Origin: Ruminococcus flavefaciens
GTDB lineage: Bacteria > Bacteroidota > Bacteroidia > Bacteroidales > P3
Direction: 5' to 3'
Length of the DNA: 64,000 nucleotides
NCBI GenBank assembly: GCA_023667315.1
Contig: JAMPAI010000002.1
Span: 186,001-250,000, forward strand
Made by a program: the position numbers and the translations under genes. The stretch's first letter is position 1; each line of letters opens with the position of its first letter. This document shows positions 13,498 through 62,690 of this stretch, one piece after another. Under the pieces are notes generated by a model. It had not been told where the DNA came from. It was given only the letters and a program-made list of their open reading frames with translations, and ran no database searches.

Positions 13498-14172
13498 ATG
13501 ATTCGCGTAGAAAACATCAAAAAGGCCTACGGGCAGCTGGAAGTCCTTAAATCGATAAACCTTAGCATTGAACCGCGCCAGGTGGTGTGCATTACCGGGG
13601 CGTCCGGCGCCGGCAAGACCACCCTGCTGCAGATTATGGGCAGCCTGGACAAACCCGATTCGGGTTCGGTCTTTATCGGCGACACCGACCTTTACCGGCT
13701 CTCCGCCAAGAAGTTGGCCGCCTTCCGCAACAGGCAGATCGGCTTCGTGTTCCAGTTCCACTACCTTTTGCCGGAATTCAGCGCAATCGAAAACGTGATG
13801 ATGCCCGCCCTTATCGGCGGCGAAAAAACGAGCGCGGCCAGGGATAGGGCCTTGGAACTGCTGCAATTCCTGGGACTGGAAGACCGCAAGGACCACAAGC
13901 CTTCGGAACTCTCCGGAGGCGAACAGCAGCGGGTGGCCGTGGCACGCGCCCTGGTGAACCGCCCGCAGGTGATTTTTGCCGACGAGCCTTCCGGAAACTT
14001 AGACACCGCCAACGCGCTCTCGCTTCACAAACTCTTTTTTGAACTGAAGGAAAACTACGGACAGACCTTCGTGATCGTGACCCACAACCAGGATCTGGCC
14101 GCCATGTCGGACCGCTGCATCGAAATGAAAGACGGCGCCATTATCGCCGACCGGAATTCCGCCATTCTTTAA
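13498..14172 (+). CDS. lolD: ABC transporter ATP-binding protein, LolD type
   Basis: A 224-residue ATPase of the LolD/MacB class, which powers extraction of lipoproteins from the inner membrane with LolC/E partners (not in the window). Walker [10 protein letters not shown] is at about 34-42, signature LSGGEQQR at 138-145, Walker [13 protein letters not shown] at about 158-169, and the LolD-type [13 protein letters not shown] after the Q-loop. The start is ATG 13498; a -7-like TACCTTTA ends only a few bases before it, so the message may be nearly leaderless. The last four codons (A-I-L-stop) lie inside the first unit of the 23-bp repeat at 14161, so its natural C-terminus may have been replaced. 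Confidence 0.9.
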
Positions 14173-14258
14173 AGTAAATTTGCGCTATTTCTTAAAGTAA
14201 AACTGCGCCATTCTTTAAAGTAAAATTGCGCCATTTCTTAAAATTATCGTATATTTGC
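14161..14258 (+). repeat. 23-bp tandem repeat between lolD and an AAA ATPase gene
   Basis: Three 23-bp units at 14161-14183, 14184-14206 and 14207-14229 share GC(C/T)ATT(C/T)(T/C)TTAAAGTAAA and end in TGC. A fourth, degenerate and longer unit (14230-14258) runs into the gene's -7 box. Unit 1 contains the lolD stop codon (14170-14172). Each unit ends in a TAAAnnTGC segment that itself resembles a -7 box. There are no spacers, so this is not a CRISPR array. Confidence 0.9.
14250..14257 (+). promoter_or_regulatory. -7 promoter box for the 14.3-kb ATPase
   Basis: TATATTTG followed by C, 19 bp upstream of the ATG at 14276, at the end of the repeat array. Confidence 0.65.
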
Positions 14259-14275
14259 ATCACAACATACTGAAT

Positions 14276-15550
14276 ATGAATACTCCCAAAAAATCATATT
14301 TACCCCGCGTATGCGATGCCCTTTTGCAAAAAAAATTACGTTCCTCGGGAGCCGTTCTCATAACGGGATGCAAATGGTGCGGAAAAACAAGAAGCGCCGG
14401 TCAATTCGCCAAAAGCACCCTGTTTATGCAGGATACCGACCGTTCATCCACCTACCTTGAACTGTCCCAGACCCTCCCCTCCATACTCCTTAACGGAGAA
14501 ACCCCAAGATTGATAGACGAATGGCAAATGGCGCCTGTATTGTGGGATGCTGTACGCCACGAAGTTGACAAACGGGAGGAACCGGGTCAGTTTATACTAA
14601 CCGGCTCCGCCGTACCCAAAGATAACGTTACGGCTCATACCGGAACCGGCAGGATTGCCCGATTGCTGATGCGCCCCATGAGCCTGTTCGAATCGAAAGA
14701 GTCCAACGGTGCGGTTTCCCTTGCCCATCTGTTCGAAAACAACCAGCAAGAAGGAGCCATATCCTCCCTTTCCATAAAAGACATATCGTTTGCCATTTGC
14801 AGGGGCGGCTGGCCGGCATCACTCTTTTTTAACAAAAAAGATGCCTTGGATGTGGCACGGAACTACGTGGATGCCGTTATCGAGGAAGATATATCGCGTG
14901 TGGACGGGATTGAACGCAACCCCCAACGGGTCTTCAACCTGTTACGTTCCCTTTCGAGAAATATCGCCACAATGGTTTCGAACACAACCATCATGCAGGA
15001 TATTGCCGCCTCTGAAACCTCCCTGTCTGCCCCCACGCTCGATTCGTACCTCAACGCCCTACGGCGTATATTTGTAATTGACGACACCTTGGCCTGGTCT
15101 CCGGCTCTGCGTTCAAAAACACCGCTGAGGACCTCTGCCAAACGTAATTTCGTGGATCCTTCCATTGCCGCCGCCGTGCTGCGTTCCAATCCGGACCGAC
15201 TGCTCGAAGATTTCAACACCTTCGGTTTTTTGTTCGAGTCGCTGTGCCACCGGGACATGAAAGTCTATGCCCAGGCAAACGACGGCGACGTCTTTCATTA
15301 CAGAGACAAAAACGGATTGGAGGCGGATATGATTATCGCCTTGCGGGACGGGCGGTGGGCAGCCGTGGAAGTAAAGCTAGGCAGCAGGCAAATCGAGGAA
15401 GCGGCGGCCAACCTCATTAAACTTTCCAACCAAATCGACACCGAAAAAATGGGGAAACCCTCTTTTCTGATGGTGCTGACCGGAGGTGAATACGCATACA
15501 AACGCAAAGACGGAGTTTGGGTCGTGCCCCTCGGTTGCATGAAAGACTAA
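14276..15550 (+). CDS. AAA ATPase with C-terminal DUF4143 (nuclease-like) domain
   Basis: A 424-residue protein started at ATG 14276 (MNTPKKSYLPR); a TTG at 14255 would sit inside the -7 box. Walker A is GCKWCGKT at about 31-38 and Walker B RLIDEW at about 78-83, followed by LTGSAVP as sensor. The C-terminal half fits DUF4143 and keeps a PD-(D/E)xK-like pattern: E321 in FLFES, E349-x-D351 (GLEAD), and E365-V-K367. Such ATPases are abundant in Bacteroidota and archaea with no settled function. The gene fills the gap exactly: repeats begin in the lolD stop and its own stop lies 3 bp from the rodA stop (convergent). AT-richer than both neighbours. Confidence 0.88.
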   Translation: MNTPKKSYLPRVCDALLQKKLRSSGAVLITGCKWCGKTRSAGQFAKSTLFMQDTDRSSTYLELSQTLPSILLNGETPRLIDEWQMAPVLWDAVRHEVDKREEPGQFILTGSAVPKDNVTAHTGTGRIARLLMRPMSLFESKESNGAVSLAHLFENNQQEGAISSLSIKDISFAICRGGWPASLFFNKKDALDVARNYVDAVIEEDISRVDGIERNPQRVFNLLRSLSRNIATMVSNTTIMQDIAASETSLSAPTLDSYLNALRRIFVIDDTLAWSPALRSKTPLRTSAKRNFVDPSIAAAVLRSNPDRLLEDFNTFGFLFESLCHRDMKVYAQANDGDVFHYRDKNGLEADMIIALRDGRWAAVEVKLGSRQIEEAAANLIKLSNQIDTEKMGKPSFLMVLTGGEYAYKRKDGVWVVPLGCMKD

Positions 15551-15553
15551 AGG

Positions 15554-16804
15554 CTACCCGGCCAAACGGCGGGTGTCCATCTTGATGAAGATGAACAGCA
15601 GCAGGGTGAACGCCCACAGGGAGGAGCCCCCGTAACTGAAGAAAGGCAGCGGAATGCCGATAACGGGCAGCAATCCTATGGTCATGCCCACGTTTACGAA
15701 CAGGTGCATAAAGAAAATGCAGGCCACCCCGTAGCCATACACCCGGCCATAGACGGTGCGTTGCCGTTCGGCCATCTTGACGATACGCAGCAACAGCGCC
15801 AGATACAGCGCCAGGAAAACCGTGCAGCCCACCCAGCCCCATTCTTCGCCGAGGGTACAGAAGATAAAGTCGGTGCTTTGCTCGGGCACGAAATCGAACT
15901 TGGTCTGGGTTCCCTGTAGGTATCCCCTGCCCGTAAAGCCGCCGCTGCCGATGGCGATCTTCGACTGGTTCACGTTATATCCCGCCCCCTTTACATCGAT
16001 CTCCTTGCCCAGAAGCACGTTGATACGCGTCTGCTGGTGCGGGCTGAGCTTGTTGAACGCATATTCGACCCCCAAGGTGTAGGCCGAACAGATGCCGAAC
16101 AGCAACACCGCCAGACTGATGTTCTTGAACGTACGCTTGTTGCAGAACAGAAGCGCCGTAACCGCCACGAAAATCACCCCGATAAGCACGTAACGGTTCA
16201 CCAGCAGCGCCGCCACGAACAGCGCCACCGCCACCACGCCCGCCAGCAACACCTTGCCCGACATACCCTCGCGGTAGAGCACCAGCACGAAAGCCACGAA
16301 CACGAGCGCCGAACCCGCGTCGGGCTGCAGCAGGATCAATCCCATCGGGACGAGGAACCACAGCGAGGCGGCGATCTGGTTGCGCACCTTCTTCATATTC
16401 ATGGCCGGCTGCGATACATAGCGCGCAAAGGCCAGACAGGTGGCCACCTTGGCGAACTCCGAGGGCTGAATGGAGAGCGGGCCTATCTTGATCCACGACT
16501 TGGCACCTGAAATCTCGGAGCCGAACACCAGCACCGCCAGCAGCAGCACGATGGCTATGCCGTAGTAGAGGTAGGCGAACTGCACGAATATGCGCAGGTC
16601 GGCAATGAGCACCGCCGTGCCGAGAATCAGCGCCAGCCCGATAAACATAAGCTGCTTGCCGTAACGGGTGGCAAACGAAAAGCCGGTGTTCTCGGGGTCA
16701 TACACCACCGAGTAGATGTTGAACCAGCCCGCTATCACCAACAGCAGGTAGATGAGCAGCAGCGGCTTGTCTATGTTCTTGAATGTGTTTCCTCCCGCGT
16801 TCAT
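15554..16804 (-). CDS. rodA: Rod-shape determining peptidoglycan polymerase RodA
   Basis: SEDS-family glycosyltransferase, 416 residues from ATG 16804 (MNAGGNTFKNIDKP), with about ten membrane segments. Landmarks are the long GAKSWIKIGPLSIQPSEFAK region, the LLQPDAGSALVF segment with the catalytic-type Asp, and the C-terminal GIPLPFFSYGGSS. The ATG overlaps the mrdA stop in an ATGA arrangement, so synthesis is coupled to its cognate transpeptidase. A frame extending beyond 16804 only reads mrdA out of frame. Confidence 0.96.
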   Translation of the reverse strand: MNAGGNTFKNIDKPLLLIYLLLVIAGWFNIYSVVYDPENTGFSFATRYGKQLMFIGLALILGTAVLIADLRIFVQFAYLYYGIAIVLLLAVLVFGSEISGAKSWIKIGPLSIQPSEFAKVATCLAFARYVSQPAMNMKKVRNQIAASLWFLVPMGLILLQPDAGSALVFVAFVLVLYREGMSGKVLLAGVVAVALFVAALLVNRYVLIGVIFVAVTALLFCNKRTFKNISLAVLLFGICSAYTLGVEYAFNKLSPHQQTRINVLLGKEIDVKGAGYNVNQSKIAIGSGGFTGRGYLQGTQTKFDFVPEQSTDFIFCTLGEEWGWVGCTVFLALYLALLLRIVKMAERQRTVYGRVYGYGVACIFFMHLFVNVGMTIGLLPVIGIPLPFFSYGGSSLWAFTLLLFIFIKMDTRRLAG

Positions 16805-18624
16805 AGGTTTTCGGGTGTATAAACGGTAAATTCCTTTACCTGGCTTTCCAGCCACTTGCGCGAAATCTTGCCGGTAAGGTATCTCTCGATGAGCAGGCTG
16901 GCCGTAGGCGCCGCCCACGTACCGCCGAACCCGCTGTTCTCGAGAAACACCGAAATGGCGATCTTGGGGTTGTCCTTAGGCGCGAAACCGATAAAGACGG
17001 CGTGATCCTTGCCGTGCGGGTTCTCGGAAGTGCCCGTCTTGCCACAGACCACGATGCTGTCTATCTTGGCCCGCCGCGCCGTGCCGCCCGGCAGATGCAC
17101 GGCTCCATACATGCCTTCCACCACCGGGTCGAAATACTTGCGGTCGATGGCCGTGTAGTGCCGCGCGGTATCAATTCGCGGATTGGTGAGCTCTTCGCCG
17201 ATGGCCCGTACCAGGTGGGGCGTGATATAGTACCCCCTGTTCGCCATGATCGACGCCAAGTTGGCCATCTGCAGGGGAATCAGGCCGATTTCGCCCTGCC
17301 CGATGCTCAACGAATAGATGGTGCTGAACGCCCACTGGTTGCGGCCGTAATAGCGGTCGTAATAGGCCGCGTTGGGTATCAGCCCCGCCTTGACTTCCAT
17401 CTGGTCGATGCCCAGGCGCGTTCCCAAACCGAAGGAGCGCATCAGGGTGTCCCATTTCTCAAGCCCGAGGCGGCTGTCCACAAAACGGTTGGGATCCTTG
17501 CCTTGCATGATGATACGGCGGAACACCTGATAGAAATAGGGGTTGCACGACATCCTTACCCCTTCGGCCACACAGAGCGCGTCGGGATGGTTGTGGCATC
17601 CCACCAGGTACTTCTCGCAGGCGAAGCCCGAATAGGGAGTGATTACCTTTTCCTGCATGCCGATAAGCGCCTGCGGCAGCTTGAAGATGGATCCGGGCGG
17701 ATAATAGGCCATCAGCGCACGGTTAAAGAGGGGCTTGTGCTCGTCGTTGAGCAGTTTGGCGTAGTTGTTGCTGCGGATACGGCCCACCAGCAGGTTGGGG
17801 TCGTAGGTGGGCGCCGAAACCAGGGCCAGCACCTCGCCCGTGGCGGGCTCTATGGCCACGATGCTGCCGCGCTTGCCCACCATGAGTTCCTCGGCGTAGG
17901 CCTGCAGCTCGGCGTCCAGCGTGGTGTAGAGTTCCTGTCCAGACACCGCCGCCGTATCGAATATGCCGTCTTTGTAGCTGCCTTTCTCGCGGTTGAGCAC
18001 GTCCACCATCACCACCTTTACCCCGTTGTGCCCCCGCAGCTGTTCCTCGTAGTATTTCTCCAGGCCGTTCTTGCCGATGTAATCGCCCATCTTGTAATAG
18101 GGATTGCGGGCAATCTCGCTTTCGCTCACCTCGCCCACATCGCCCAGCACGTGGGCCGCTATCGGTTTGGGATAACGCCGCAGGGTACGGCTCTGCACAT
18201 AGAATCCGGGAAACTTGTAGAGGTATTCCTGCAGCTTGCCGTAGACTTCCTTGGAAATCTGTTTCTCGAACACCGAATGGGCGTAGCGCGAATAGGCCCG
18301 CGCCTTTTTGTAACGTTCCATCGCGCCTTCTTCGGTAATCTCCAACAGTTCGGCCAGGAGCACCCAGTCTATGTCTTTGGCCTGTCCGGGAATAATCATC
18401 AGGTCGTACACCGCCTCGTTATACACCAGGATCTTGCCGTTGCGATCGTAGATAAGCCCCCTGCCCGGATACTGCACCTTGTTGCGGATGGCGTTGCTCT
18501 CGGCATCCAGCTTGTAGCGGCTATCGACAATCTGCAGCTGGAACAGGCGGATCCAATAGATAAACGCCACGGCCAGAAAGATAGCCACAATCACCGCACC
18601 TCTGTTGATATTCGTCCGTTTCAT
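16801..18624 (-). CDS. mrdA: Penicillin-binding protein 2 (elongation transpeptidase)
   Basis: A 607-residue class B PBP. One N-terminal membrane helix (about 9-28), pedestal domain, then the transpeptidase: SxxK at S312-I-F-K315, SxN at S359-C-N361 and KTGT at 529-532 (VCGKTGTSENPHG). It cross-links lateral-wall peptidoglycan with RodA, encoded immediately downstream with a 4-bp overlap. The gene upstream is a small lipoprotein ending 1 bp before this start. Confidence 0.96.
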   Translation of the reverse strand: MKRTNINRGAVIVAIFLAVAFIYWIRLFQLQIVDSRYKLDAESNAIRNKVQYPGRGLIYDRNGKILVYNEAVYDLMIIPGQAKDIDWVLLAELLEITEEGAMERYKKARAYSRYAHSVFEKQISKEVYGKLQEYLYKFPGFYVQSRTLRRYPKPIAAHVLGDVGEVSESEIARNPYYKMGDYIGKNGLEKYYEEQLRGHNGVKVVMVDVLNREKGSYKDGIFDTAAVSGQELYTTLDAELQAYAEELMVGKRGSIVAIEPATGEVLALVSAPTYDPNLLVGRIRSNNYAKLLNDEHKPLFNRALMAYYPPGSIFKLPQALIGMQEKVITPYSGFACEKYLVGCHNHPDALCVAEGVRMSCNPYFYQVFRRIIMQGKDPNRFVDSRLGLEKWDTLMRSFGLGTRLGIDQMEVKAGLIPNAAYYDRYYGRNQWAFSTIYSLSIGQGEIGLIPLQMANLASIMANRGYYITPHLVRAIGEELTNPRIDTARHYTAIDRKYFDPVVEGMYGAVHLPGGTARRAKIDSIVVCGKTGTSENPHGKDHAVFIGFAPKDNPKIAISVFLENSGFGGTWAAPTASLLIERYLTGKISRKWLESQVKEFTVYTPENL

Positions 18625-18625
18625 C

Positions 18626-19138
18626 CTACAATGCTATCGCGTCGGTATAAACCACATTGCTCTTGTGCAGCGCCCGGTCGTACAGGTAAAAGCTGTAGCA
18701 GACCGTTTTGCCCTGCATGAAGAAAGCCGTGCTTGCAAAATCGTCCACCTGCCAGGTAATAGTGCCGCTCAGCGAGTGGTTCCCGTTTACCGGCTCTATG
18801 TAGTGCAGATGGTATTTGTACGTAATCGGGTAACGCGCACCGGTGCTGTCGGTCTGAAAAACCGGCGCGTAAGTGCTGTCAGGCATCATCTCCAGCAGGT
18901 TGAAGTGCAGGTTGTGGAAATACTCGCCCACATAGGGTTCTTTCTCCTCTTCGTCCTTGCGTCCGATGTCGCCGTCACCGTCCTGAAAATAAAACTCCAC
19001 CGCCAAGGTCAGGGTGGTGTCGCCGCCCACACCCGCCTGCATGCCCAGGATATTCTGCCGGAACTCCAGATAGGGTTCGTCCGGAAATTCCTTAGGCTTT
19101 ACGCAGGCGCACAGCAAAAGCGAGAGCGCCAATATCAT
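18626..19138 (-). CDS. Small exported lipoprotein upstream of mrdA
   Basis: I start at ATG 19138 (MILALSLLLCACVKPKEF), giving 170 residues with a short signal sequence and a lipobox ending in Cys12. The mature part contains FQDGDGDIG, an Asp-rich loop found in many Bacteroidota lipoproteins of unknown function, and a predicted beta-rich body. A longer frame to 19222 would spoil the signal peptide. It ends 1 bp before mrdA, so it may be co-expressed with the elongation pair and could serve the cell envelope; that link is positional only. Confidence 0.75.
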   Translation of the reverse strand: MILALSLLLCACVKPKEFPDEPYLEFRQNILGMQAGVGGDTTLTLAVEFYFQDGDGDIGRKDEEEKEPYVGEYFHNLHFNLLEMMPDSTYAPVFQTDSTGARYPITYKYHLHYIEPVNGNHSLSGTITWQVDDFASTAFFMQGKTVCYSFYLYDRALHKSNVVYTDAIAL

Positions 19139-19254
19139 CCAAATTTGTACTTTTGGTATGGTATGCAATTTAAAATCAGGATTTAAAAAATTGTAAACCA
19201 AATTTTTGCAGGACAAAGACAAGGCTTCGCCCCAAAGTTGTAAAATTATAAAAA

Positions 19255-20277
19255 ATGTTGTTACAGAAAACGGTACAGACGCTTGTTCCCCGCATTTTCG
19301 ATATCCGGAGCGAAAAGGATTTCAACGACTTGACGTTGCAGGTATTCCGTCTGCACTGGGAACACAATGCCGTTTACCACCGTTTCGTGCACTACCTCAA
19401 GCCTTCGCTGAAGCCCGAAGACATCACGCATTTCAGCCAGATACCCTTCCTGCCCATCGACTTTTTCAAGACCCAGAAGATATTGTTGGACGGCCTTACG
19501 GAACAAGACTACTTCATGAGCTCGGGCACCACCTCGCAAGGCGCCGTGCAAAGCCGCCACTACATTGCCGACAAAAGCATCTACGAGCAATGTTTTCTGA
19601 ACGCCTTCCGCCTGTTTTGGGGTGAACCGCAGGATTATGTTTTTTTGGCCTTGCTGCCCAATTACCTCGAACAGCCGCATTCCTCGCTTATCTGCATGAT
19701 GAAGAAGCTTATCGAGCTGAGCCGGCCCCGGCATCCCGAAAGCGGCTTTTACCTCTACAACACGCAGGAATTGGCACAGACGTTGCAGAAACTGGAAGCC
19801 CAAGGCACGAAAACCATGCTGTTCGGCGTAAGTTTCGCGCTGCTGGATCTAGCGGAAAGCTTTCCGATGCCGCTCAGGCACACGCTGGTTCTGGAAACCG
19901 GCGGCATGAAGGGGCGGCGCCGGGAAATGGTGAAGGAGGAACTGCACCAAATCTTGAAGAACGCCTTCCAGGTGCCGGCCATCCATTCCGAATACGGCAT
20001 GTGCGAACTTTTCTCGCAGGCCTACTCCACCGGTAAAGACGGGCGGTTCCTGTGTCCGCCCTGGATGAAGATACTTATCCGCAACAGCCAGGATCCCCTA
20101 AGTCCGGAAAAAGACGAAAAGACGGGCGGCATCAATGTGATCGACCTGGGAAACATCTGTTCCTGCCCCTTTATCGCGACCCAGGATCTGGGAAAGAATC
20201 ATGCCGACGGCAGTTTCGAGGTGTTGGGAAGGTTCGACAACAGCGACATCCGGGGCTGCAACCTGATGGTGGAATAA
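19255..20277 (+). CDS. LuxE-like acyl-protein synthetase / adenylate-forming ligase
   Basis: A 340-residue protein resembling the LuxE/PaaK branch of adenylate-forming enzymes. Visible marks are IPFLPIDFFKTQKI, the nucleotide-binding YFMSSGTTSQG near residue 90, LETGGMKGRRREMVKEEL, and HSEYGMCELFSQAY as the AMP-binding motif. The C-terminal part is short, as in LuxE, which activates fatty acids for transfer to a protein or reductase. No luxC/D-like partner is nearby, so the acyl substrate is unknown. It is divergent from the lipoprotein-mrdA-rodA operon. Confidence 0.82.
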   Translation: MLLQKTVQTLVPRIFDIRSEKDFNDLTLQVFRLHWEHNAVYHRFVHYLKPSLKPEDITHFSQIPFLPIDFFKTQKILLDGLTEQDYFMSSGTTSQGAVQSRHYIADKSIYEQCFLNAFRLFWGEPQDYVFLALLPNYLEQPHSSLICMMKKLIELSRPRHPESGFYLYNTQELAQTLQKLEAQGTKTMLFGVSFALLDLAESFPMPLRHTLVLETGGMKGRRREMVKEELHQILKNAFQVPAIHSEYGMCELFSQAYSTGKDGRFLCPPWMKILIRNSQDPLSPEKDEKTGGINVIDLGNICSCPFIATQDLGKNHADGSFEVLGRFDNSDIRGCNLMVE

Positions 20278-20283
20278 GGGAAA

Positions 20284-22167: not shown

Positions 22168-22175
22168 CTTTCTAT

Positions 22176-24083: not shown

Positions 24084-24096
24084 GGTGATGAAACTT

Positions 24097-24134
24097 AAAA
24101 AAAAGGGCTGCACACTTGCATGTACAACCCTTTT
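24097..24134 (-). terminator. Terminator of gldJ
   Basis: On the minus strand AAAAGGGTTGTACATG pairs, with G-U pairs, to the arm ending in CCCTTTT, followed by eight Ts. It lies 20 bp after the gldJ stop and directly before the U32 gene. Confidence 0.8.
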
Positions 24135-24154
24135 ATGCAGTACCGGATTATCGG

Positions 24155-25669: not shown

Positions 25670-25693
25670 GAATTACGGTATTTTAAGCAGCGG

Positions 25694-25701
25694 CAAAGAT
25701 A
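25694..25701 (-). promoter_or_regulatory. -7 promoter box for gldJ
   Basis: TATCTTTG on the minus strand followed by CC, 25 bp upstream of the gldJ ATG. Confidence 0.7.
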
Positions 25702-25729
25702 ACAAATTTCCGCCGAAATAGCAATCGCG

Positions 25730-26740: not shown

Positions 26741-26810
26741 AAGGCTTTTGTGCTTTAAATTCAAACAAATACGATTCCTGCAACCGTCTTTTTCGAACAA
26801 ATCGCAGGAG

Positions 26811-26818
26811 CAAAGGTA
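26811..26818 (-). promoter_or_regulatory. -7 promoter box for the porP-like gene
   Basis: TACCTTTG on the minus strand followed by C, about 70 bp upstream of the ATG at 26740. Confidence 0.7.
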
Positions 26819-26875
26819 AAAATTTTTTACCGTTCAAATGCAAGTTTGGCGTTTAACGACAAAAATATCTGAAAA

Positions 26876-27397
26876 TTACCAATGAAAGGAAGACTCGTCG
26901 AACCAGTCGCCGCGCACCCGCATCACCTGTTCGATCACGTCGCGCACACAGCCTTCCCCTCCTTTTTTATGGGAGATATAGTCGGCCGCCTCCTGTATCT
27001 CGATGGCCGCGTCGGCAGGACAGGCCCCCACCCCGCTCATCTTCATCACTTCGTAGTCGGGAATATCGTCGCCCATATAGAGCACCTCTTCGGGCTTGAT
27101 GCCGTTTTCGCGCAGATATTCCTCGTACTTGTCTTTTTTGTAACGCACCTGCGTAAACACGTCCTTGACCCCGATATAACGCATCCTTTCGTGTATCGAA
27201 CGGCTCTTTCCGCCCGAAATGACCGCGACCCGGTAGCCCTTTTTCAGGGCGTGATGCAGGGCGTAGCCGTCTTTCACGTCGGCGTTGCGTATCTGGGTTT
27301 CCTCATCCAGCATCCATACCTTGCCGTCGCTCATCACTCCGTCGTAATCGAAGATAAAGGTGGTGATATTCGGCAGTCTTTCCTTATAGTTCGCCAT
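26876..27397 (-). CDS. kdsC: 3-deoxy-D-manno-octulosonate 8-phosphate phosphatase (HAD)
   Basis: A 173-residue HAD phosphatase started at ATG 27397 (MANYKERLPNI). HAD motif I is FDYDGVMSDG, motif II ISGGKS, motif III K-D-K near 105-110, and motif IV GDDIPDYEVM. The compact cap-less form is typical of KdsC, which makes Kdo for LPS. It overlaps the DUF2520 gene by 14 bp and closes an ADH-DUF2520-kdsC transcript. Sialic-acid-type phosphatases of the same family are a less likely alternative. Confidence 0.88.
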   Translation of the reverse strand: MANYKERLPNITTFIFDYDGVMSDGKVWMLDEETQIRNADVKDGYALHHALKKGYRVAVISGGKSRSIHERMRYIGVKDVFTQVRYKKDKYEEYLRENGIKPEEVLYMGDDIPDYEVMKMSGVGACPADAAIEIQEAADYISHKKGGEGCVRDVIEQVMRVRGDWFDESSFHW

Positions 27398-28181: not shown

Positions 28182-28197
28182 GCCTGTATGCACCTTG

Positions 28198-52766: not shown

Positions 52767-52790
52767 AACGGAATTTGTTTTGTTCTGCGG

Positions 52791-52798
52791 CAAAAGTA
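52791..52798 (-). promoter_or_regulatory. -7 promoter box for the 1488-residue protein gene
   Basis: TACTTTTG on the minus strand followed by CC, 25 bp upstream of the ATG at 52766. Confidence 0.7.
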
Positions 52799-52821
52799 AA
52801 TTCCCAAACAACCCGACACTC

Positions 52822-52836
52822 TTAACGAAACGTTAA
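52822..52836 (-). promoter_or_regulatory. Possible operator TTAACG-AAA-CGTTAA
   Basis: A perfect 6+6 palindrome with a 3-bp spacer about 24 bp upstream of the -7 box, overlapping the -33 region. Further TTTAAC half-sites occur near 52849, 52879 and 52910. The spacing suits a dimeric regulator; no cognate regulator is encoded in the window. Confidence 0.4.
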
Positions 52837-52940
52837 ACTTCAAGGGCGTTTAACATCTTTTATGAAAAAACGGACACTTTTAACATTTCAAGCTCATATT
52901 TTAACGTTTATTAAGACTCTTCACATATGGACGATAGATA

Positions 52941-52975
52941 AAAAAAGCCGTGCGGAATTTTTTCCGCACGGCTTT
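52941..52975 (-). terminator. Terminator of the 53.0-kb surface protein gene
   Basis: 13-bp perfect arms (AAGCCGTGCGGAA / TTCCGCACGGCTT) with a 4-bp loop and a T-run on the minus strand, 35 bp after the stop at 53010. Confidence 0.92.
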
Positions 52976-53009
52976 CCGGACCTTACCGGTCCAACTTCAA
53001 AAAAGTCGT

Positions 53010-56000: not shown

Positions 56001-58919
56001 GTTGCCGTCGGACACGGCCACGTAGGCGGCGGCAGCGAAGGTGGTCCCGGGCTGCATGGGCTTGACCACGTTCATCACCAAGGTCTTGGTGCCGTCGTAG
56101 TAGAAGCCCTGCAGGGGCAGCCTGAGGGTGTTCTCGCCTGCCTTGAAGCGCAGGGTGTCGGCAAAGACGAGGGTGAGGTTTTCCTTTTCCACAAAGTCCT
56201 TGGCCGGGCTTGCAGTGCTTCCGCCAAAAGCCGCAGAGTCGGTGGTTCCCATGTAGATCTTCGTGAATTGCTTGGCCTCGCCCGTGGTGGGGGCGGTGGT
56301 GAAGAGCAGCAGGGTGTCGATGTACATGGCCTTGCCGGTGGCCGGATAGATCATCTGGGCAAAGGCGGAGTTGTCGGCGGTGCGGCTTACGTTAAGCACT
56401 CTGGATTCAGTGGTTTCGGAGACGGATACATTGCTGTAGATCATGCCGTCCCTGATGCCGGCCAGGGTGCGTACCGAACGCGACTTGGATTCCCACGCGT
56501 TGGCGAACTCCAGGGTGAAGGTGTGCATGCCGGTTGTCAGGGCAGCCGTGGTGAAGGTGGTGTCCGAACCGCTGTAGAGATCGGTGCCGGCGGCATCCTT
56601 CAACTTATAGGAAACCGTGCCGATATAGCCGTCGTGCGAGGCTTTCGGCTTGCCCCAGGTCAGCCTGACCGAGCCGTCGGCCTGCGGTTCGGCGGCAGCC
56701 GTTACGGATGTGGGCATATCGGAACCGATCCACGGGCTTATCAACAGATAGCCGTCAGCATCCGCATAGGAGGAATATTTAAGGGAAGCCCCGTATCCGT
56801 TGTACAGCTTGGCCCGGAGGCAATACTGGCCGGCCTTGGGAACCTCGGCCTCGAGATCGAGGGTCGCCCCGGGGGTAAGCCCCGTCTTGACCGCATTGGA
56901 AGGTGTCGGGTTCCACGTTACACGGGTTCCGGAAACCGTTCCGAGATAAAATTCAACGCTGTCTATGCCCGACAATGTGCCGTCGCCCATGGTCTTGGCA
57001 GGCAGGGTCATATTGACAACCGCCTTCAGGGAACCGTCGGTGGCGGCGGCGACACTGTTGAATGTGGCGTAACCCGGCACATCGGGCGGGATGACTTCCT
57101 TTATCTCGATATCATCGATATACATCGGGTTCTCCGCATCTTCCGCACCGATCCAGACAGCCATCTGACCGGTGGCGTCCACGGCATAAAGTGCCTCGAA
57201 TCTCACCCAACCGTCGGCTTCGGCCACATCGCTATATCCTATAAGGGATCCATCGGCATATACATCCACACAATTTGTGGAAGTGGCCTTGTACCAGAAC
57301 GAAATCTGATACCCGGTGCCCTGGCGCACCGAAAGACCCTCTATCTTCAACAGACGGTCTTCGTCATAGTAGTAGTCGCTGGTAAGCCTGTAACCGTAAC
57401 TGCCGGTATGCGCCGTGTCGCGGACACGGCCGCATCCGCCCAATCCGTCAAGGTCTTCGAGCGTGATGTTCTCCATCTTGCCGGATTCATCTTCTTCGAA
57501 TCCGTTCGTATAGGGCAGCTGAACGTTGATCAGGCGCACCTCGGCCATCGATATCGGGGAGGCCTTGCCGGCCTTGTTCTTAAACTGAAGGACGTATGTA
57601 AGCGTTCCTTCGGTTTCGGCAACGGCAATCTCTTCCGTGTATTTCTGTCCGGGAACGGGATTGTTGACGGTCTTCGCCAACGACAGGCTCGTGCTGCCGG
57701 ACTTGTAGATTTCGGCGCTTCCAAGTTCAGCAAGGGGGTCGCCGTTGCGGGTGTATTCCGGTGCGGTGAACCGGGCAATCACGTTCGTGCCGTCGTAGGC
57801 AAGCGCCAGTTCCGCCGCCTCCGGGTTCTCATCCACGAAATAAACGGAAGCCAAGGCCATAGTCTGCGTAAGAGCTCCCAGCTGGACAGAAGTATCCTTT
57901 TCTGCCGGATCCCAGACGGACATATAACCGGCATTTCCTGTTTCATTGATATTGGCCCAATAAATCTTGTCGCTACGGTAATCCCAGGCGGCAGACTGAT
58001 TGTATGTGGCGGTGGGCTGTTTGGTGTCTCCGATCTCTTCCAGCGAATACGTGTCATTTTCCTTCTTCACGGAATATACCTTGCCGTCCGTGCAGATGAT
58101 ATAGAACTTGCCGGTCTTGTCGATGGCCATGGCCACCGGGATATTGGCTGTGGAGATGTCTATCCGGAACGCCTTCCCGAAGACCGCCGTACCCTTGTCG
58201 GCCGAATAGAAAACGATTGAATCCACCGCAGTGTAATCAGCCGTGTATCCGTTCTTCAGGGTATAGACCTTGCCGGAGGAATAGTCGTACGCACAGGCAT
58301 CCGAAATCATCCCTCCCTGGTCGCCGGTTAGATAGGCTTGTGTAAGCTGTGTTGCCTGTTGCGTAAACGGATCGAAAGTGAAATACCCTACTATCGAATT
58401 TCCTGCCGCCCAGATCCCTTCATAGACGGATCCGGTCCACGTTCCCCAATACGGGTGCAGCCTCGTGCCACCCGAAGCGTAAGGAAAGCCGCACGTCGAT
58501 AATGCCGTCCTTACTCCGTCAACATAAACGGCCTTGATCATGTCGTGATTCCTCGAACTTCCCCCCACGAACACATGGGTCTGCCCGGCTGCATCCCCGG
58601 CCTTGGGGGCGGCGGCAAAAGCCTGCTGCATGTAGTCTTTCACCATGTCGAGCTTCTGCCTTTCGGTAAGCGCCCGGTTGTCGAAGTCCACCGAAAGGTT
58701 CCCGGCCCCTATGCCCGGCTTTTTCTCTCCGATCACTTGAACGTTGGCTGTCACCGACCCTTGGGCATCGGACACACGTTCCATCTTCGGGATGATTTGA
58801 TCCATCCTGGCCACCGTGCTCCCGCCGGCAAACTGTTTGGTGAGTTGTTGCGCTCCAACCGGGTTGAACCACAACACTGCGCAAATGAGCATCGCGCAGA
58901 TCCTGTCTGTTCGTTTCAT
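53010..58919 (-). CDS. Giant secreted adhesin-like protein with type IX sorting tail
   Basis: A 1969-residue exported protein. Signal peptide to about 23 (MLICAVLWFNPVGAQ). The N-terminal half includes a beta-propeller-like region (SSGKVYTLKNGYTADYTAV, TGKFYIICTDGKVYSV). A carbohydrate-binding-like jelly-roll segment follows (YTNGFEEDESGKMENITLED ... YQISFWYKA), then carboxypeptidase-regulatory-like domains (GKVVDKGGKALADVAVKADDG), choice-of-anchor J (DDFAISGVDPW ... YLIHPVTKGGGMFTFFVRA), fibronectin-like repeats and a type A sorting domain from about 1893 (KVYPNPSDGLFYLQ ... GMYLIRFVN). It is likely a type IX cargo acting in adhesion or polymer binding; no catalytic motif was found. Its leader is about 220 nt. 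Confidence 0.88.
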   Translation of the reverse strand: MKRTDRICAMLICAVLWFNPVGAQQLTKQFAGGSTVARMDQIIPKMERVSDAQGSVTANVQVIGEKKPGIGAGNLSVDFDNRALTERQKLDMVKDYMQQAFAAAPKAGDAAGQTHVFVGGSSRNHDMIKAVYVDGVRTALSTCGFPYASGGTRLHPYWGTWTGSVYEGIWAAGNSIVGYFTFDPFTQQATQLTQAYLTGDQGGMISDACAYDYSSGKVYTLKNGYTADYTAVDSIVFYSADKGTAVFGKAFRIDISTANIPVAMAIDKTGKFYIICTDGKVYSVKKENDTYSLEEIGDTKQPTATYNQSAAWDYRSDKIYWANINETGNAGYMSVWDPAEKDTSVQLGALTQTMALASVYFVDENPEAAELALAYDGTNVIARFTAPEYTRNGDPLAELGSAEIYKSGSTSLSLAKTVNNPVPGQKYTEEIAVAETEGTLTYVLQFKNKAGKASPISMAEVRLINVQLPYTNGFEEDESGKMENITLEDLDGLGGCGRVRDTAHTGSYGYRLTSDYYYDEDRLLKIEGLSVRQGTGYQISFWYKATSTNCVDVYADGSLIGYSDVAEADGWVRFEALYAVDATGQMAVWIGAEDAENPMYIDDIEIKEVIPPDVPGYATFNSVAAATDGSLKAVVNMTLPAKTMGDGTLSGIDSVEFYLGTVSGTRVTWNPTPSNAVKTGLTPGATLDLEAEVPKAGQYCLRAKLYNGYGASLKYSSYADADGYLLISPWIGSDMPTSVTAAAEPQADGSVRLTWGKPKASHDGYIGTVSYKLKDAAGTDLYSGSDTTFTTAALTTGMHTFTLEFANAWESKSRSVRTLAGIRDGMIYSNVSVSETTESRVLNVSRTADNSAFAQMIYPATGKAMYIDTLLLFTTAPTTGEAKQFTKIYMGTTDSAAFGGSTASPAKDFVEKENLTLVFADTLRFKAGENTLRLPLQGFYYDGTKTLVMNVVKPMQPGTTFAAAAYVAVSDGNMLKYRSTSTSVDFDTVSRYNDYTGTPSGYSVSMVAAPNTNLKTARITVKWQNPEDNTVSAPVAGVSVRIFKPDTVAGKNLDVTVLTGDDGVATFECLPDGKFFVVARKAAYIASQPQELNVATASPVEMEIFIERAAIRKAGGKVVDKGGKALADVAVKADDGVFAAQTTTGQDGRYELDIYGSSEYDLAFEKAGMRPYAMKLGLEEKDTVLADVEMRYDPVPVPMASVAVEDGKAVVKWNKPAASAMMSWVGTVTQIRRLTIDNKTAFKYAQRFTPEDLAALKLGAQPKALRFGFVAGSETAHYSIVLAADTTHEIYRQEVPMDKLRMGEWCNIDIPADKAAIDLTKELWLIVEVAESEDQGYACAATTVGTVAGKGNLMCYQNKWYTINQLFENGAGNMLIRLLVEDASTQIEAANGYRVYRGLLQDDFEDYTLLTQENVKATTYTDADYSGLAFGQYNYAVVADFYGEDLAEPAYTNTLNKDMEFTVSFKVTSNAGSAKGAAVYMVDTGMTRDYEAVVDAEGNALITKKVWRDAYEYEVSLPYHRVVEGVLHLSSDTVLSIKLEEVIVNPELTAEVQGLDVVVNYGVNLHNWSDDVESYDDFAISGVDPWILSEAVAKGGVEGTTWSHSRDPQSWIVMNPSKTQPALSWAPYSGDRYFAAMYNPKAQNNDYLIHPVTKGGGMFTFFVRAVNSQYPESFELVYSTTTSDLNAFQTLPGSTVASFTATNWARGRFTIPENARFIGIHCISNNAFGLLVDDLSYQTEELANPTGYELYLDGVKVKDAAATELTYTFKDLSVGEHKVGVKAIYASGASELVEQTVKVSAEAMPINLKATVEESTAVLTWDMPEGFAPQSYKVFLGNEQKAENLTEKTYTFSDLANGTYTASVVAVYETGESEKASVEFTVNVVVGVEDFDMAPRTKVYPNPSDGLFYLQAAGKGVAEVYTMNGQIIRRMEIPAEGVYTIDLQNRAKGMYLIRFVNNEQSSFFKVVVR

Positions 58920-59145
58920 TTCTTTGGTTTTTAATCAATACTCCGTGAACTTAACTTTTGAATCTATGAGCCTCGCCCCGACCCTTTCCGAAGAACAAAG
59001 CCGTTAACTTTATTCTTGCCTCGGATTGAACCGGTTCTTGACTCTCCGACTCTTTATTTCTCTATAAACTCCTTTTTGCTTATCGCAATCTTTATATAAA
59101 AAAATGCGGAAGCAAGCCCCATGGCCTACTTCAGCACACGGGGTG

Positions 59146-59153
59146 TAAAGATA
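59146..59153 (-). promoter_or_regulatory. -7-like promoter box for the 53.0-kb surface protein gene
   Basis: TATCTTTA on the minus strand, one base off consensus, about 230 bp upstream of the ATG at 58919, giving a long 5' leader. The rest of the 430-bp gap 58920-59350 holds this leader, the divergent ATPase promoter and its repeats. Confidence 0.45.
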
Positions 59154-59239
59154 ATACAAAATTCTCACATAACGAAACTTTTTACGTCAACACAACAATA
59201 ATCTCCCCCTTTTTATGACAACGGTATCTAAAAAATTTA

Positions 59240-59340
59240 CTGTATCTTTGCCTACTCACTCTGCGGATTTTCTTTAAAAATCTGCAATTACTCTGCGGAT
59301 TTTCTTTAAAAATCCGCAACAATAAAAAACAAAGATACAG
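59240..59340 (+). repeat. Inverted repeat enclosing two 32-bp hairpin repeats upstream of an ATPase
   Basis: Outer arms CTGTATCTTTG (59240-59250) and CAAAGATACAG (59330-59340) are an 11-bp perfect inverted repeat; the left arm includes the gene's -7 box TATCTTTG and the right arm mirrors it on the other strand. Inside are two direct repeats (59258-59289 and 59290-59321; 29 of 32 bases alike) beginning ACTCTGCGGATTTTC, each folding into GCGGATTTT/AAAATC(C/T)GC. The right arm ends 10 bp before the ATG. Confidence 0.9.
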
Positions 59341-59350
59341 CATTAATGCC

Positions 59351-60490
59351 ATGTATAACAGAGTATTAAAAATAGAAAATAAATTAGATGAAGCGATGTT
59401 TCTATTTGGCGCACGTCAAGTAGGAAAATCCACCCTTCTGGAAAGCCGTTTCCCAGATGCGGTTTACTTCGACCTGCTTAAACCCGAACTTCGGCAAAGG
59501 CTTCAAAAAGCCCCCTCCCTGTTTGCCGAAATGCTCGAAAGGTATCCGGCCGAAACCTTGGTGATTGTTGATGAAATCCAAAAAGTTCCCTCTTTATTGG
59601 ATGAGATTCACTCGCTGATGGTAAAAAAAGGACTGTACTTTATCCTTAGCGGTTCCAGCGCGAGAAAACTAAAGCGTTCGGGATCCAACACCTTGGGTGG
59701 ACGCGCCATTCCCGAAGTATTATACCCTTTGGTGAGTGCCGAAATACCCGATTTCAACCTAGACAAGGCCTTACAGAACGGAATGATTCCGAGGCATTAC
59801 ATGACACAGGATGCAAGCAAACGACTCAAAGCCTACGTGGAAGTTTACCTACAGGAGGAAATACGGGAAGAGGCCATGCTCAGGGGGGCGTCTTCCTTTA
59901 GTCGATTTATGGAGGTGGCCGCCATTTCAGACTGCGAGATAATCAATTACGAAAACATCGCTTCCGATTGCGGTGTGGCGGCAAACACCGTAAAATCCTA
60001 CTTCCAGATTCTATACGACACCCTTATCGGATACGAGGTGCCGGCCTTTCGGAGAAGCGTAAAACGAAAACTTTTCCATGCTCCCAAATTCTATTATTTC
60101 GATGTGGGGATCGCAAACTATCTGATGGGGCGAAACCATATCCAACCCGGCACCCCCGAATACGGACACGCCTTTGAACACTTCATCATACAGGAACTCA
60201 TTGCCTACATAGGCTACAGCGGCTCCAAAGATAAGCTTTCCTATTGGCGCACGTATTCCGGATTGGAAGTGGATGCGGTTCTCGGCGATGCCAAAGTGGC
60301 TATTGAAATAAAATCCACCGGTGAGATCCAAAGGCGACACCTAAGCGGGCTTAACCGTTTTTTGGAGGAATACCCCAATGCCCGTGCCATCATCGTTTCG
60401 TTAGACAAATTGAGCCGAAAATCGGGCAACATCGAGGTATTCCATGTGTTCGACTTCCTAAAAATGCTTTGGAATGGCGAGATAATATAG
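59351..60490 (+). CDS. AAA ATPase (AAA_14) with DUF4143 nuclease-like domain
   Basis: A 379-residue protein from ATG 59351. Walker A GARQVGKST is at about residues 20-28, Walker B TLVIVDEIQ near 71-79, and the sensor-like LSGSSARKLK follows. The C-terminal DUF4143 part keeps E (HAFEHFIIQEL), E-x-D (GLEVDAV) and E-x-K (IEIK), a PD-(D/E)xK-like set. Same family as the gene at 14.3 kb but clearly different in sequence. It is AT-richer than nearby genes and sits directly behind private repeats. No partner gene is attached. Its role is unknown; proposals for this family include toxin-antitoxin-like or defence functions, none shown here. Confidence 0.9.
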   Translation: MYNRVLKIENKLDEAMFLFGARQVGKSTLLESRFPDAVYFDLLKPELRQRLQKAPSLFAEMLERYPAETLVIVDEIQKVPSLLDEIHSLMVKKGLYFILSGSSARKLKRSGSNTLGGRAIPEVLYPLVSAEIPDFNLDKALQNGMIPRHYMTQDASKRLKAYVEVYLQEEIREEAMLRGASSFSRFMEVAAISDCEIINYENIASDCGVAANTVKSYFQILYDTLIGYEVPAFRRSVKRKLFHAPKFYYFDVGIANYLMGRNHIQPGTPEYGHAFEHFIIQELIAYIGYSGSKDKLSYWRTYSGLEVDAVLGDAKVAIEIKSTGEIQRRHLSGLNRFLEEYPNARAIIVSLDKLSRKSGNIEVFHVFDFLKMLWNGEII

Positions 60491-60500
60491 ATGTAACAAA

Positions 60501-60534
60501 AAAAGTCCGATGCGGAAATCCGCACCGGACTTGA
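60501..60534 (-). terminator. Terminator of the frdB-like remnant
   Basis: AAGTCCG/CGGACTT outer and TGCGGA/TCCGCA inner arms, with a run of seven Ts on the minus strand. It lies 28 bp after the stop of the iron-sulfur subunit fragment and also faces the end of the plus-strand ATPase. Confidence 0.88.
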
Positions 60535-60561
60535 TAAAGAAACGCGGCAGATTGCCCGTTA

Positions 60562-60645
60562 TCAGAAACTTGCCTTGATGAACTCGCGGTTCAGCCTGGC
60601 GATATGCAGAATCTTGATGCCTTTGGGACATTCGGCCTCGCAGGC
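60562..60645 (-). pseudogene. frdB: 3' remnant of succinate dehydrogenase/fumarate reductase iron-sulfur subunit
   Basis: Reading up from a TGA at 60564-60562 the last 27 codons give ACEAECPKGIKILHIARLN then REFIKASF, the C-terminal cluster-binding Cys-Pro segment and tail of FrdB/SdhB. Upstream of about 60645 the similarity stops and the DNA runs into the end of the HigA-like gene. The original stop codon and terminator are kept. An intact copy may exist elsewhere; the other 90 percent of this one is gone, so this is a deletion or recombination scar (or an assembly join). Confidence 0.75.
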
Positions 60646-60662
60646 TTTAGGAGACGGAAGAC

Positions 60663-61104
60663 TTATGGGACAATGCCGTAGAAACGGGCTATTTCCTGCT
60701 TCTCCTGTTCGTTACCGCGCTCGGCAACCCGGACGAGGATTGCCTGCTTGTAACGCCCCCAGTCGAGGGTATCGAAATCTGTATCCCAAAAGAGCGACGG
60801 GCGGATGTTCGGAACTCCGGTAATGGAACGGCTTGCCGCCCGGCTTTTGTGGGTGGCAATTTCATAGAAAGTTTGAAGCACCAGCAACGAGCCCTCTTCG
60901 TAACCGAAAGCCTGTTCTACCTTAAGGGCCATTTCAAGGGTAAGGGCGCGATGACCGGTAATGACGGCGTTCAATGTCTGGCTGTGTTCGCCAATGGATT
61001 GGGCAAAAGCCCGCTGGCAGAGATGCCGTTTCTGCAAATCCCTGCCGATGATTTTTCCAGGATGGAAACCCTCCGGAGAGATCCGGATTTGCCGGACTGA
61101 TCAT
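60663..61104 (-). pseudogene. HigA-like XRE antitoxin fused to DUF6922, frameshifted near its start
   Basis: The long frame (61037-60663) carries an XRE helix-turn-helix (LCQRAFAQSIGEHSQTLNAVI, split across residues) of the HigA type and a C-terminal LFWDTDFDTLDWGRYKQAI-type segment as in DUF6922 proteins. The HigA N-terminus FHPGKIIGRD is present in this frame but has no start codon before an upstream TGA. An ATG at 61104 in the next frame gives MISPANPDLSGG; joining the two needs one G removed from the GGG at 61071-61069, which yields a perfect HigA opening. A real mutation, a sequencing error or initiation from TTG 61037 are all possible. No HigB toxin is adjacent. Confidence 0.72.
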
Positions 61105-61160
61105 GCGGCCGCCACGAGGCAACACGAGGCGGCTGAGACACGGGAAAGTCCTCTGGATTT

Positions 61161-61206
61161 ATACCGAATTTGGAGATTATACCCGCTAAATTCATACCGA
61201 ATTTGG
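61161..61206 (+). repeat. Direct repeat ATACCGAATTTGG upstream of the decayed ATPase
   Basis: Two exact copies at 61161-61173 and 61194-61206 (period 33 bp), followed by TTTGGCGG/TTTGGCGG at about 61202-61217. They precede a -7-like TATTTTCG (61225-61232) and the start codon at 61247, matching the layout of the other ATPase loci. The 61105-61160 stretch before them shows nothing recognisable. Confidence 0.8.
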
Positions 61207-61246
61207 CGGTTTGGCGGTTTTGCCTATTTTCGCAAAAAATAAAACC

Positions 61247-61320
61247 ATGATAAAGCGCATTATCAAAAACTCCATATTGTCGGATTATAGACGCAAAAAG
61301 GCAATCGTGTTGTTGGGATC
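61247..61320 (+). pseudogene. 5' fragment of a DUF4143-family AAA ATPase, cut at Walker A
   Basis: From ATG 61247 the first 25 codons read MIKRIIKNSILSDYRRKKAI then VLLGS, the standard opening of DUF4143 ATPases whose next residues should be xRQxGKTTL. Exactly at the Walker A loop the sequence changes to an AT-rich stretch that holds the promoter of the next ATPase; the frame then closes at 61387, overlapping that gene's start. This is the stump of a fifth ATPase, apparently interrupted by a second cassette. Confidence 0.78.
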
Positions 61321-61352
61321 CGGCCTGTCCTTTTTTTTAGGATATTTTTTGT

Positions 61353-61360
61353 TATTTTTG
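61353..61360 (+). promoter_or_regulatory. -7 promoter box for the 61.4-kb ATPase
   Basis: TATTTTTG, 20 bp upstream of the ATG at 61380, just after the broken end of the truncated ATPase. Confidence 0.65.
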
Positions 61361-61379
61361 TCCCCCAGAAAAGGACACA

Positions 61380-62690
61380 ATGGATAAGGCATATCTAAAA
61401 ACACTGATAGCCACACGTCAGGCGGAATTTCCAACTGACCTCAAGAAGCGGGAAAATCCGTTGCCTGTGGGGGGCGGCAAGATAGTCATCATACCGGGGG
61501 TCAGGAGATGCGGCAAGACATCGAGAATGGAAGCCGTTGTAAATGAACTTCTTGCTAATGGTATAGCCCGCGAGCGATTCCTATGGGTGGGCTTTGATGA
61601 CGAACGTCTTGTCAAGATGACTTCCGACGAACTCAACCTGATTATCGAAGCCTACAGGGAGATGTATCCCGGCATAGAGATGAAGACTGTTTATATGTTT
61701 TTTGATGAGATACAACTTATTGAGAATTGGGAATATTTCATCATGCGCCTGTTCAGGCATCATTCAAAAAACATATACATAAGCGGCAGCAACGCCACCA
61801 TGCTGAGCAGTGAACTTAAGACGGCACTGCGGGGATGGCCCGAGGAAGAAGAAACCCTGCCGCTTTCCTTCAACGAATATTGCCGTTTTCTGGATATCAA
61901 CACCAACAGTTGGCTGGAATCGGACATGGCCAGAATCCGCAATGCCTTCGTTGATTTCAACAACGAGGGGGGATTCCCCGAAGTGGTATTGACAAACAAC
62001 CCTTTCAAGAAAAACAAGATCCTGCAATCCTATTTCGACACCATGCTGTTGAAAGACCTGGCCGAACACTACGGGGTGTCGAACATCGAGGTTCTGCGCT
62101 ATTATCTGAAACGCATCATGGCCAATCTGACCAAACCCACCTCCATACGCGGAATCTATGGCGACATTAAGTCGAAAGGGTTGAAGGTAAGCAAGGACAA
62201 CCTGTACGACTGGGTCGGGTATGCATGCGGCATATTTATGTTTTTCCCGGTGTCCAACTACAGCAAGTCTCTGCAGAAAACCGAGAGTTCGCAACCCAAG
62301 TACTATTGCATCGACAATGGTTTGCGCAATGCCGTTCTTCTTCCGCAGAGCGACGATGCCGGGAAGAAACTTGAAAATACGGTGTTCTTGCAACTGTACA
62401 GACAAAAGACACCGGTCGATCGGATTTTCTATTATCTCGGAAAAAAAGAATGTGACTTTATTGTGCAGCGCGGCACCGACATCCATCAACTCATTCAGGT
62501 GTGTTGGAGCATTGACGAGAATGAATCCAGGGAACGGGAAATAAAGGGACTCTTGGAGGCTTCTTCCGCAACAGGATGTAACAATATGTTGCTTATAACC
62601 GCCGAACAGGAAGAGGAAATCCGTATGGAAGACGGACGGCTCATAAGGGTGGTTCCCGCATGGAAGTGGTCTTTAGGCGGAACGTTTTGA
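61380..62690 (+). CDS. AAA ATPase with DUF4143-like C-terminus
   Basis: A 436-residue protein. Walker A is GVRRCGKTS near 40-48, Walker B VYMFFDEIQ near 103-111, sensor SGSNATML. A central winged-helix-like region follows (FDTMLLKDLAEHYGVSNIEVLRYYLKRI, split). The C-terminal nuclease-like part has E (LENTVFLQLYR) and E-x-D (KKECDFIV), but the usual E-x-K is Q-V-C (IQVCWSI), so cleavage activity is doubtful, as in one branch of the family. It starts right beside the stump of another ATPase and ends exactly where the structured tandem repeats begin (62691). Confidence 0.88.
   Translation: MDKAYLKTLIATRQAEFPTDLKKRENPLPVGGGKIVIIPGVRRCGKTSRMEAVVNELLANGIARERFLWVGFDDERLVKMTSDELNLIIEAYREMYPGIEMKTVYMFFDEIQLIENWEYFIMRLFRHHSKNIYISGSNATMLSSELKTALRGWPEEEETLPLSFNEYCRFLDINTNSWLESDMARIRNAFVDFNNEGGFPEVVLTNNPFKKNKILQSYFDTMLLKDLAEHYGVSNIEVLRYYLKRIMANLTKPTSIRGIYGDIKSKGLKVSKDNLYDWVGYACGIFMFFPVSNYSKSLQKTESSQPKYYCIDNGLRNAVLLPQSDDAGKKLENTVFLQLYRQKTPVDRIFYYLGKKECDFIVQRGTDIHQLIQVCWSIDENESREREIKGLLEASSATGCNNMLLITAEQEEEIRMEDGRLIRVVPAWKWSLGGTF

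Follow-up and report, generated by a model that had tools for sequence, protein, structure and literature searches.

Why would a nuclease bind its own gene? The question is posed by a 64,000-nt window of Ruminococcus flavefaciens DNA (assembly GCA_023667315.1, contig JAMPAI010000002.1, positions 186,001 to 250,000; coordinates below are those of the window) in which, as the original prediction stated, five loci encode AAA ATPases of the ATPase_2/DUF4143 kind, most of them behind repeats of their own. Three of the proteins pass both Pfam cut-offs, the frame at 1-79 is an ATPase_2 gene, and the stump at 61247 was recognized by eye; the repeats reported at 126-214, 14160, 59258 and 61161 are all present in the sequence (Table 1). 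These cassettes probably encode autoregulated STAND ATPase-nucleases, each of which would bind its own array and thereby repress its own promoter, with defence as the most likely wider job; binding, repression and defence are what we infer from the patterns described below.

The source genome, G000 (2.93 Mb in 88 contigs), contains 22 DUF4143 matches over the Pfam cut-off. Upstream DNA of 31 ATPase loci (DUF4143/ATPase_2), a set that includes a weak match which is probably not a member (L032) and several short upstream stretches at contig ends, was compared with that of 115 other genes whose intergenic stretch upstream spans at least 100 bp, drawn from the window and 400 kb of G000. The median direct-repeat score is 19 at the ATPase loci and 8 at the controls (95th percentile 12.3), and a maximum z of at least 5 is found at 22/31 ATPase loci vs 13/115 controls (Fisher p=1.6e-10), which bears out the expected excess of repeats over other intergenic regions. 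The strongest repeat among the control genes is an intergenic direct repeat scoring 54-60 at L058:17127-17380. In a genus sample of 13 genomes and 116 distinct DUF4143 genes (8 with <90 bp of upstream DNA and 6 duplicates were left out), 75 genes have a direct score of at least 13. Genome-wide pattern searches allowing up to three mismatches were made for the 14160 and 59258 units, and the other units were sought in part of the genome: the 14160 unit is found at its own gene and at a single three-mismatch match elsewhere in G000 (the reversed-pattern control gives 3 matches), and the 59258 unit at its own gene only.

Array periods fall into discrete classes. Among the 74 arrays called in the genus, 69 have periods of 22-23 (12 arrays), 32-34 (48) or 40-42 bp (9), and none has a period of 24-31 or 35-39 bp; the remaining five periods are 44, 46, 62, 69 and 75 bp, two of which, 46 and 69, come from members of the 23-bp subfamily and equal two and three times 23. 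The classes are clustered on the protein tree (33 changes vs a shuffled mean of 53.5; 0/200 shuffles), and even where no array was called the best offset lies within them in 23/37 genes with a single best offset, as compared to 29/115 controls. Steps near whole turns of DNA suggest that the proteins are arranged on one face of the helix. The 23-bp class was followed through 80 relatives of the 14276 protein, of which 78 had sufficient DNA upstream and two were left out; the titles of their source records name Bacteroidota, Firmicutes groups, Actinomycetota, Spirochaetota, Proteobacteria and archaea, many being metagenome-assembled genomes in which mis-binning is possible. The best offset is 22-24 or 45-47 bp in 73/78 (exactly 23 or 46 bp in 72), a direct score of at least 13 is reached by 62/78, and the 23-bp spacing is maintained across 51-68% protein identity and several phyla while the sequence drifts. 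Spacing of 23 or 46 bp recurs in 28 of 30 further loci from viral contigs, plasmids, phage records and other Bacteroidota (two of them, L331 and L336, are near-identical), and relatives of L022 outside the genus have 32-34 bp in 23/29 cases.

The arrays overlap the promoters of their own genes. TAnnTTTG, which we take to be the Bacteroidota -7 box, is present in 72/74 array regions vs 42/115 control genes, and in 64 it is no more than 40 bp from the end of the array; the 14160 array, which overlaps the end of an ABC-transporter gene, ends at such a box. Four purposes had been offered for the repeats (autoregulation, self-mobilization, addiction and defence), and of these autoregulation is favoured most by the position of the arrays on the promoter, where a bound protein would be expected to repress.

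Alignment of 85 of the 91 23-bp arrays reveals a common frame: KCCAAW, six variable bases, an AATRAAA-like backbone and a spacer. Bases 6-11 carry only 0.09-0.42 bits between genes yet are 0.82-0.95 conserved inside each array, whereas within-array conservation at spacer bases 19-22 is 0.71-0.77; the core thus varies between genes and is constant within an array, as expected of a private address in a common frame. The earlier statement that the repeats differ completely between loci was therefore too strong: it is the short core that differs, while spacing and frame are common within a protein subfamily.

Could such repeats be tandem duplications that hitch-hike at promoters, unread by the protein and alike by ancestry alone? 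Units are more alike the more similar their proteins are (Mantel r 0.45 over all bases and 0.38 over the core; 0/500 permutations each), the relation anticipated by the original prediction, and the spacer bases follow it weakly too (r 0.17, 0/500), all of which descent alone could produce. Passive duplications would not explain why the mismatches that separate copies cluster (combined p=1.5e-10) or why particular residues and bases change together, as described below, and they are rejected as very improbable because spacing stays fixed while sequence drifts and the core outlasts the spacer within arrays.

Which part of the protein would read the core? High mutual information, computed on 76 of the 85 arrays, links residue 253 to base 10 and residue 345 to bases 1-2, and the 20-residue block with the highest values for core bases is 240-259. 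At residue 253, K occurs with G at base 10 in 22/23 arrays, D with C in 19/21, P with A in 9/9 and E with G in 8/10, N being mixed; at residue 345, K occurs with CC at bases 1-2 in 50/53, R with CA in 10/11, and A or S with AC in 10/10. Co-change was scored in 84 arrays, L276 having been dropped because of gaps where the test was made. On a tree from which the regions under test had been excluded, 253x10 ranked first of 6380 pairs (p=3.5e-7) and 345x1 second (6.4e-6); under a stricter null, in which base changes are proportional to protein change, none of 40 trials was as strong as 253x10. A count of independent arrivals supports 345x1 (p=0.0004), and a sister-pair test is led by 234x11 (p=2.3e-5), with 253x11 at p=2.5e-4 and 253x10 at p=1.2e-3 (29th of 6023). 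Among held-out loci, residue 253 predicted base 10 correctly in 5/6 cases and residue 345 predicted bases 1-2 in 6/12. The covariation is good, though not conclusive, evidence for direct contact. The proposed covariation with the winged-helix region thus stands in part: co-change is strongest there, and the strict tests are mixed. That each protein recognizes its own repeat is a well-supported prediction: the repeats exceed controls and the unit tracks the protein, and binding is what these sequence patterns point to.

Together, these observations are consistent with a single-gene cassette in which at least two helically spaced binding sites precede the gene and overlap its own promoter; the product would be a STAND-type ATPase that binds DNA through a winged-helix domain and ends in a domain of the PD-(D/E)XK type. 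The protein would read its array via the recognition helix (the residue 253 region) and perhaps a turn of the nuclease domain (residue 345), would sit along the DNA at the spacing set by its subfamily (23, ~33 or ~41 bp), and, once bound, would repress its own promoter. Private addresses would allow about 20 paralogs to coexist in one genome without cross-talk, and the wider job would most likely be defence against invading DNA. If so, the arrays predict the DNA bound by each protein, the partial residue-to-base code can be tested in vitro, and the cassettes provide a natural collection of protein-operator pairs that appear to be orthogonal.

Several results weigh against this autoregulatory reading. 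The stricter null reaches the strength of 345x1 in 10/40 trials, and its lowest value, 3.7e-7, is close to that of 253x10. In the independent-arrivals count, 253x10 has only p=0.045 and lies outside the top columns for base 10, and 345x2 has p=0.16; a candidate contact 252x9, good in tree co-change, was abandoned on the same count (p=0.77). The held-out set comprised 30 loci, of which 13 arrays were usable and 17 went unscored for poor fit. The 33-bp subfamily gave no covariation signal, the best of 10440 pairs having p=1.1e-4, with 53/81 units usable in a visibly poor unit alignment. In the genus, 41/116 DUF4143 genes fall below the direct-repeat threshold, and in another DUF4143 subfamily, which includes the best Pfam scorers phylum-wide, a direct score of at least 13 is reached by only 3/30 genes (of 32 frames, two had too little upstream DNA, and one of the three positives is a 7-bp simple repeat); on this count, arrays were rejected as a trait of every DUF4143 gene. 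Finally, the -7 match depends on the consensus taken for that box.

The predicted structure of the 14276 protein contains a winged helix with a recognition helix at 252-264 and the PD-(D/E)XK residues D351, E365 and K367, which lie on strands 349-356 and 361-367 and are invariant in 43/43 aligned relatives; with D..ExK on the core strands, the model identifies it as a PD-(D/E)XK nuclease. The predicted order, an ATPase core and then the winged helix, is the NLR/CED-4-like arrangement of a STAND ATPase. Structural comparison returned STAND folds, and sequence searches for relatives of a solved structure returned nothing convincing. In NLRs, CED-4, the Apaf-1 apoptosome and Avs5, the winged helix serves autoinhibition and assembly, whereas that of the DUF4143 proteins appears to read DNA. 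Alignment of the 14276 protein with the archaeal ATPases PABY2304 (2qen) and SSO1545 (2fna) ends before the nuclease domain, and we know of no operator arrays for either. Autorepressors with multiple operators resemble the DUF4143 cassettes in having sites at their own promoter; unlike them, the cassettes combine phased, subfamily-set spacing, a private core for each paralog, about 20 paralogs per genome and an ATPase-nuclease body.

All three window DUF4143 proteins match the PADLOC models of PDC-S01 (best E 9.2e-65, 1.5e-53 and 2.4e-101), a phage defence candidate (PDC) in which an ATPase is fused to PD-(D/E)XK. According to the sections available of the report that counts them, PDC-S01 comprises 9,986 archaeal and 29,494 bacterial systems and ranks as the fourth most common defence over all prokaryotes, and most PDCs still await validation (PMC12988326). 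In those sections PDC-S01 appears with no mention of upstream arrays, DNA recognition, trigger, target or regulation, and searches of the open-access literature, as far as its available text goes, found no published description of such arrays.

The invariant active site of a protein that appears to bind its own gene, together with the predicted STAND switch fold, would suit a nuclease gated by DNA: the array would be a parking place on which stacked protein is inactive, and loss of the cassette, or invading DNA with similar sites, would free or redirect the active nuclease. The array would then be the DNA-encoded antitoxin or sensor of a one-gene module, and phage arrays would be triggers, targets or decoys. 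We regard this as rather unlikely. A D..Qx(A/C/S/T) motif replaces D..ExK in 33/120 genus rows (e.g., L016, L019, L161 and L178), a group that, judging by its motif, probably lacks nuclease activity, and arrays are kept in 15/31 scored D..Qx members vs 56/76 with D..ExK. An active nuclease is thus not required for an array to be kept, and because nearly half of the D..Qx members still have arrays, the array serves more than an active nuclease.

Arrays are also found on viral contigs. A looser K-type pattern (two units 23 bp apart, 22 fixed bases) matched 38 contigs (L367-L370 and L401-L434) and a looser D-type pattern two, with no match to either reversed pattern; the tight K-type pattern matched four viral contigs, all among the 38, and the tight D-type none. 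The 38 contigs form 10 unrelated groups (no blastn match of 200 bp across groups) with 23 distinct surroundings. Their arrays have two units in 36 cases and three in two, lie outside frames of at least 100 amino acids in 35/38 and, in one case, directly 5' of a thymidylate-synthase-like gene. No DUF4143 match was found near any of the 38 in the stretch examined, which extended at least 2 kb downstream in 23; the stretches are parts of contigs, and a distant gene is possible. DUF4143 relatives themselves were found at 7 viral loci and in 7 phage and 239 plasmid records. The viral arrays could act as decoys or targets, or they could serve an unrelated protein as its sites. They lend indirect support to a role in defence and provide a testable phage link. 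Because of them, the DNA-gated nuclease gains and the autoregulatory reading drops slightly; a gain also accrues to a related, still unlikely scheme, a STAND switch with a DNA sensor, in which the winged helix would read the private phased array by a short amino-acid-to-base code, the array would be an ordered holding platform for the ATPase-nuclease, and phages of at least 10 unrelated groups would carry gene-less copies, either as decoys titrating the protein or as sites that guide it to them. If true, each DNA-sensor cassette would amount to a defence or addiction module of one gene, its antitoxin being encoded in DNA.

Do the cassettes move? Comparison with a close relative, G004 (93-97% identity at the compared flanks), located 10 of 13 sites sought; 3/12 flank queries (L012, L022 and L028) had no place in G004. 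The gene is present in both genomes at L004, L011, L027, L029 and L030, and the sites differ at L006, L009, L010, L013 and L015. The cleanest difference is at L009, in the window, where array and gene are absent from G004, from the ABC-transporter stop codon to the cassette stop. The missing unit contains nothing beyond array and gene; since it holds one gene, the cassette is not a two-gene toxin-antitoxin module, and the lack of a partner is what a DNA-gated nuclease would have. Conversely, cassettes absent at several sites between near relatives argue against that nuclease as a strong addiction module, which would resist loss.

Differences at half of the located sites and the precise absence of one unit, array edge to stop codon, would also be expected if the array were an attachment or recombination site and array plus gene were moved by the nuclease or by host recombination. 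L013 in G000 and L154 in G004 occupy one shared site, with units on both sides of each gene and interleaved arrays; a single L154-type unit remains in G000, and three units of the L013 type remain in G004, in both cases without the respective gene, and at the L015 site the promoter array remains in G004 without a gene. Deletion between flanking repeats accounts equally well for L013/L154. Clearly two-sided arrays number only 2/75, no target duplication is obvious by eye at the clean L009 site, and neither L006, a replacement, nor L010, a one-sided comparison, is a clean insertion, which together make mobility through the array improbable. The proposed self-mobilization is left with hints: the variable presence of cassettes at some sites, and the repeats that flank the gene on either side at two loci.

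The same insertion-sequence-like end is found on eight G000 contig ends. At five of them, C11 (L011), C15 (L010), C44 (L004), C55 (L012) and C87 (L015), it stops ~10-30 bp short of where the repeats of a DUF4143 array begin; the element may prefer array sites.

Table 1. Cassette features in the window.
Feature	Position	Strand	Remarks
ATPase_2-type gene start, 472-aa (amino acid) frame running past window edge	1..79	-	ATPase_2 over Pfam cut-off
Paired palindromes AGCCAAAAGTT...AACTTTTGGCT, 5' of minus-strand ATPase_2 gene (locus L026)	126..214		
-7-like box CAAAGATA of ATPase_2 gene (1..79)	at 100	-	
Four 23-bp units, GCCATTYYTTAAAGTAAA type, last partial	14160..14249	+	Starts 14160, 14183, 14206, 14229
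-7-like promoter box TATATTTG at end of 14160 array	14250..14257	+	
AAA_14 + DUF4143 protein, 424 aa, PDC-S01	14276..15550	+	Both Pfam cut-offs passed, PADLOC models
Complete cassette, array + gene (site L009), missing in close relative G004	14157..15550	+	
-7-like box TATCTTTG ahead of 59258 array	59243..59250	+	
Two 32-bp units (CTCTGCGGATTTTCTTTAAAAATCYGCAA), starts ~59258 and 59290	59258..59321	+	
AAA_14 + DUF4143 protein, 379 aa, PDC-S01	59351..60490	+	Both Pfam cut-offs passed, PADLOC models
Two ATACCGAATTTGG units (61161, 61194), 33 bp apart	61161..61206	+	
Stump, short frame like DUF4143 ATPase N-terminus to P-loop, then breaks	61247..61318	+	By eye
Two GTCC-N8-AGGA units (61327, 61360), 33 bp apart, around -7-like box TATTTTTG (61353)	61327..61377	+	
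AAA_14 + DUF4143 protein, 436 aa, PDC-S01; D..QxC instead of nuclease motif	61380..62690	+	Both Pfam cut-offs passed

Two assignments at the right end of the window need revision. The 61161/61194 pair had been given to the 61380 gene, and all repeats had been placed within about 150 bp of their genes; the pair is 186-219 bp away from the start at 61380 and precedes the stump at 61247 instead, of which it is probably the array. The probable own array of the 61380 gene is the weaker pair at 61327/61360, and in L140, a relative of this gene, the equivalent position holds a strong 32-bp repeat similar in shape.

A search of the whole window for known structured RNAs in the leaders gave no Rfam matches at gathering scores. 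Two DUF4143 cassettes flank an HTH_3/DUF6922 gene on the minus strand (60663-61037), which scores 43.1 bits against a HigA antitoxin model, below the 47.7 cut-off. On the 3' side of the 61380 gene, 62690-62960 contains, by eye, two to three imperfect copies of a ~75-bp block (CCGAGAGCAGAGGCCGAACTTGTTCGGACTATGCCGAGGCGCGAAAAAGG...).

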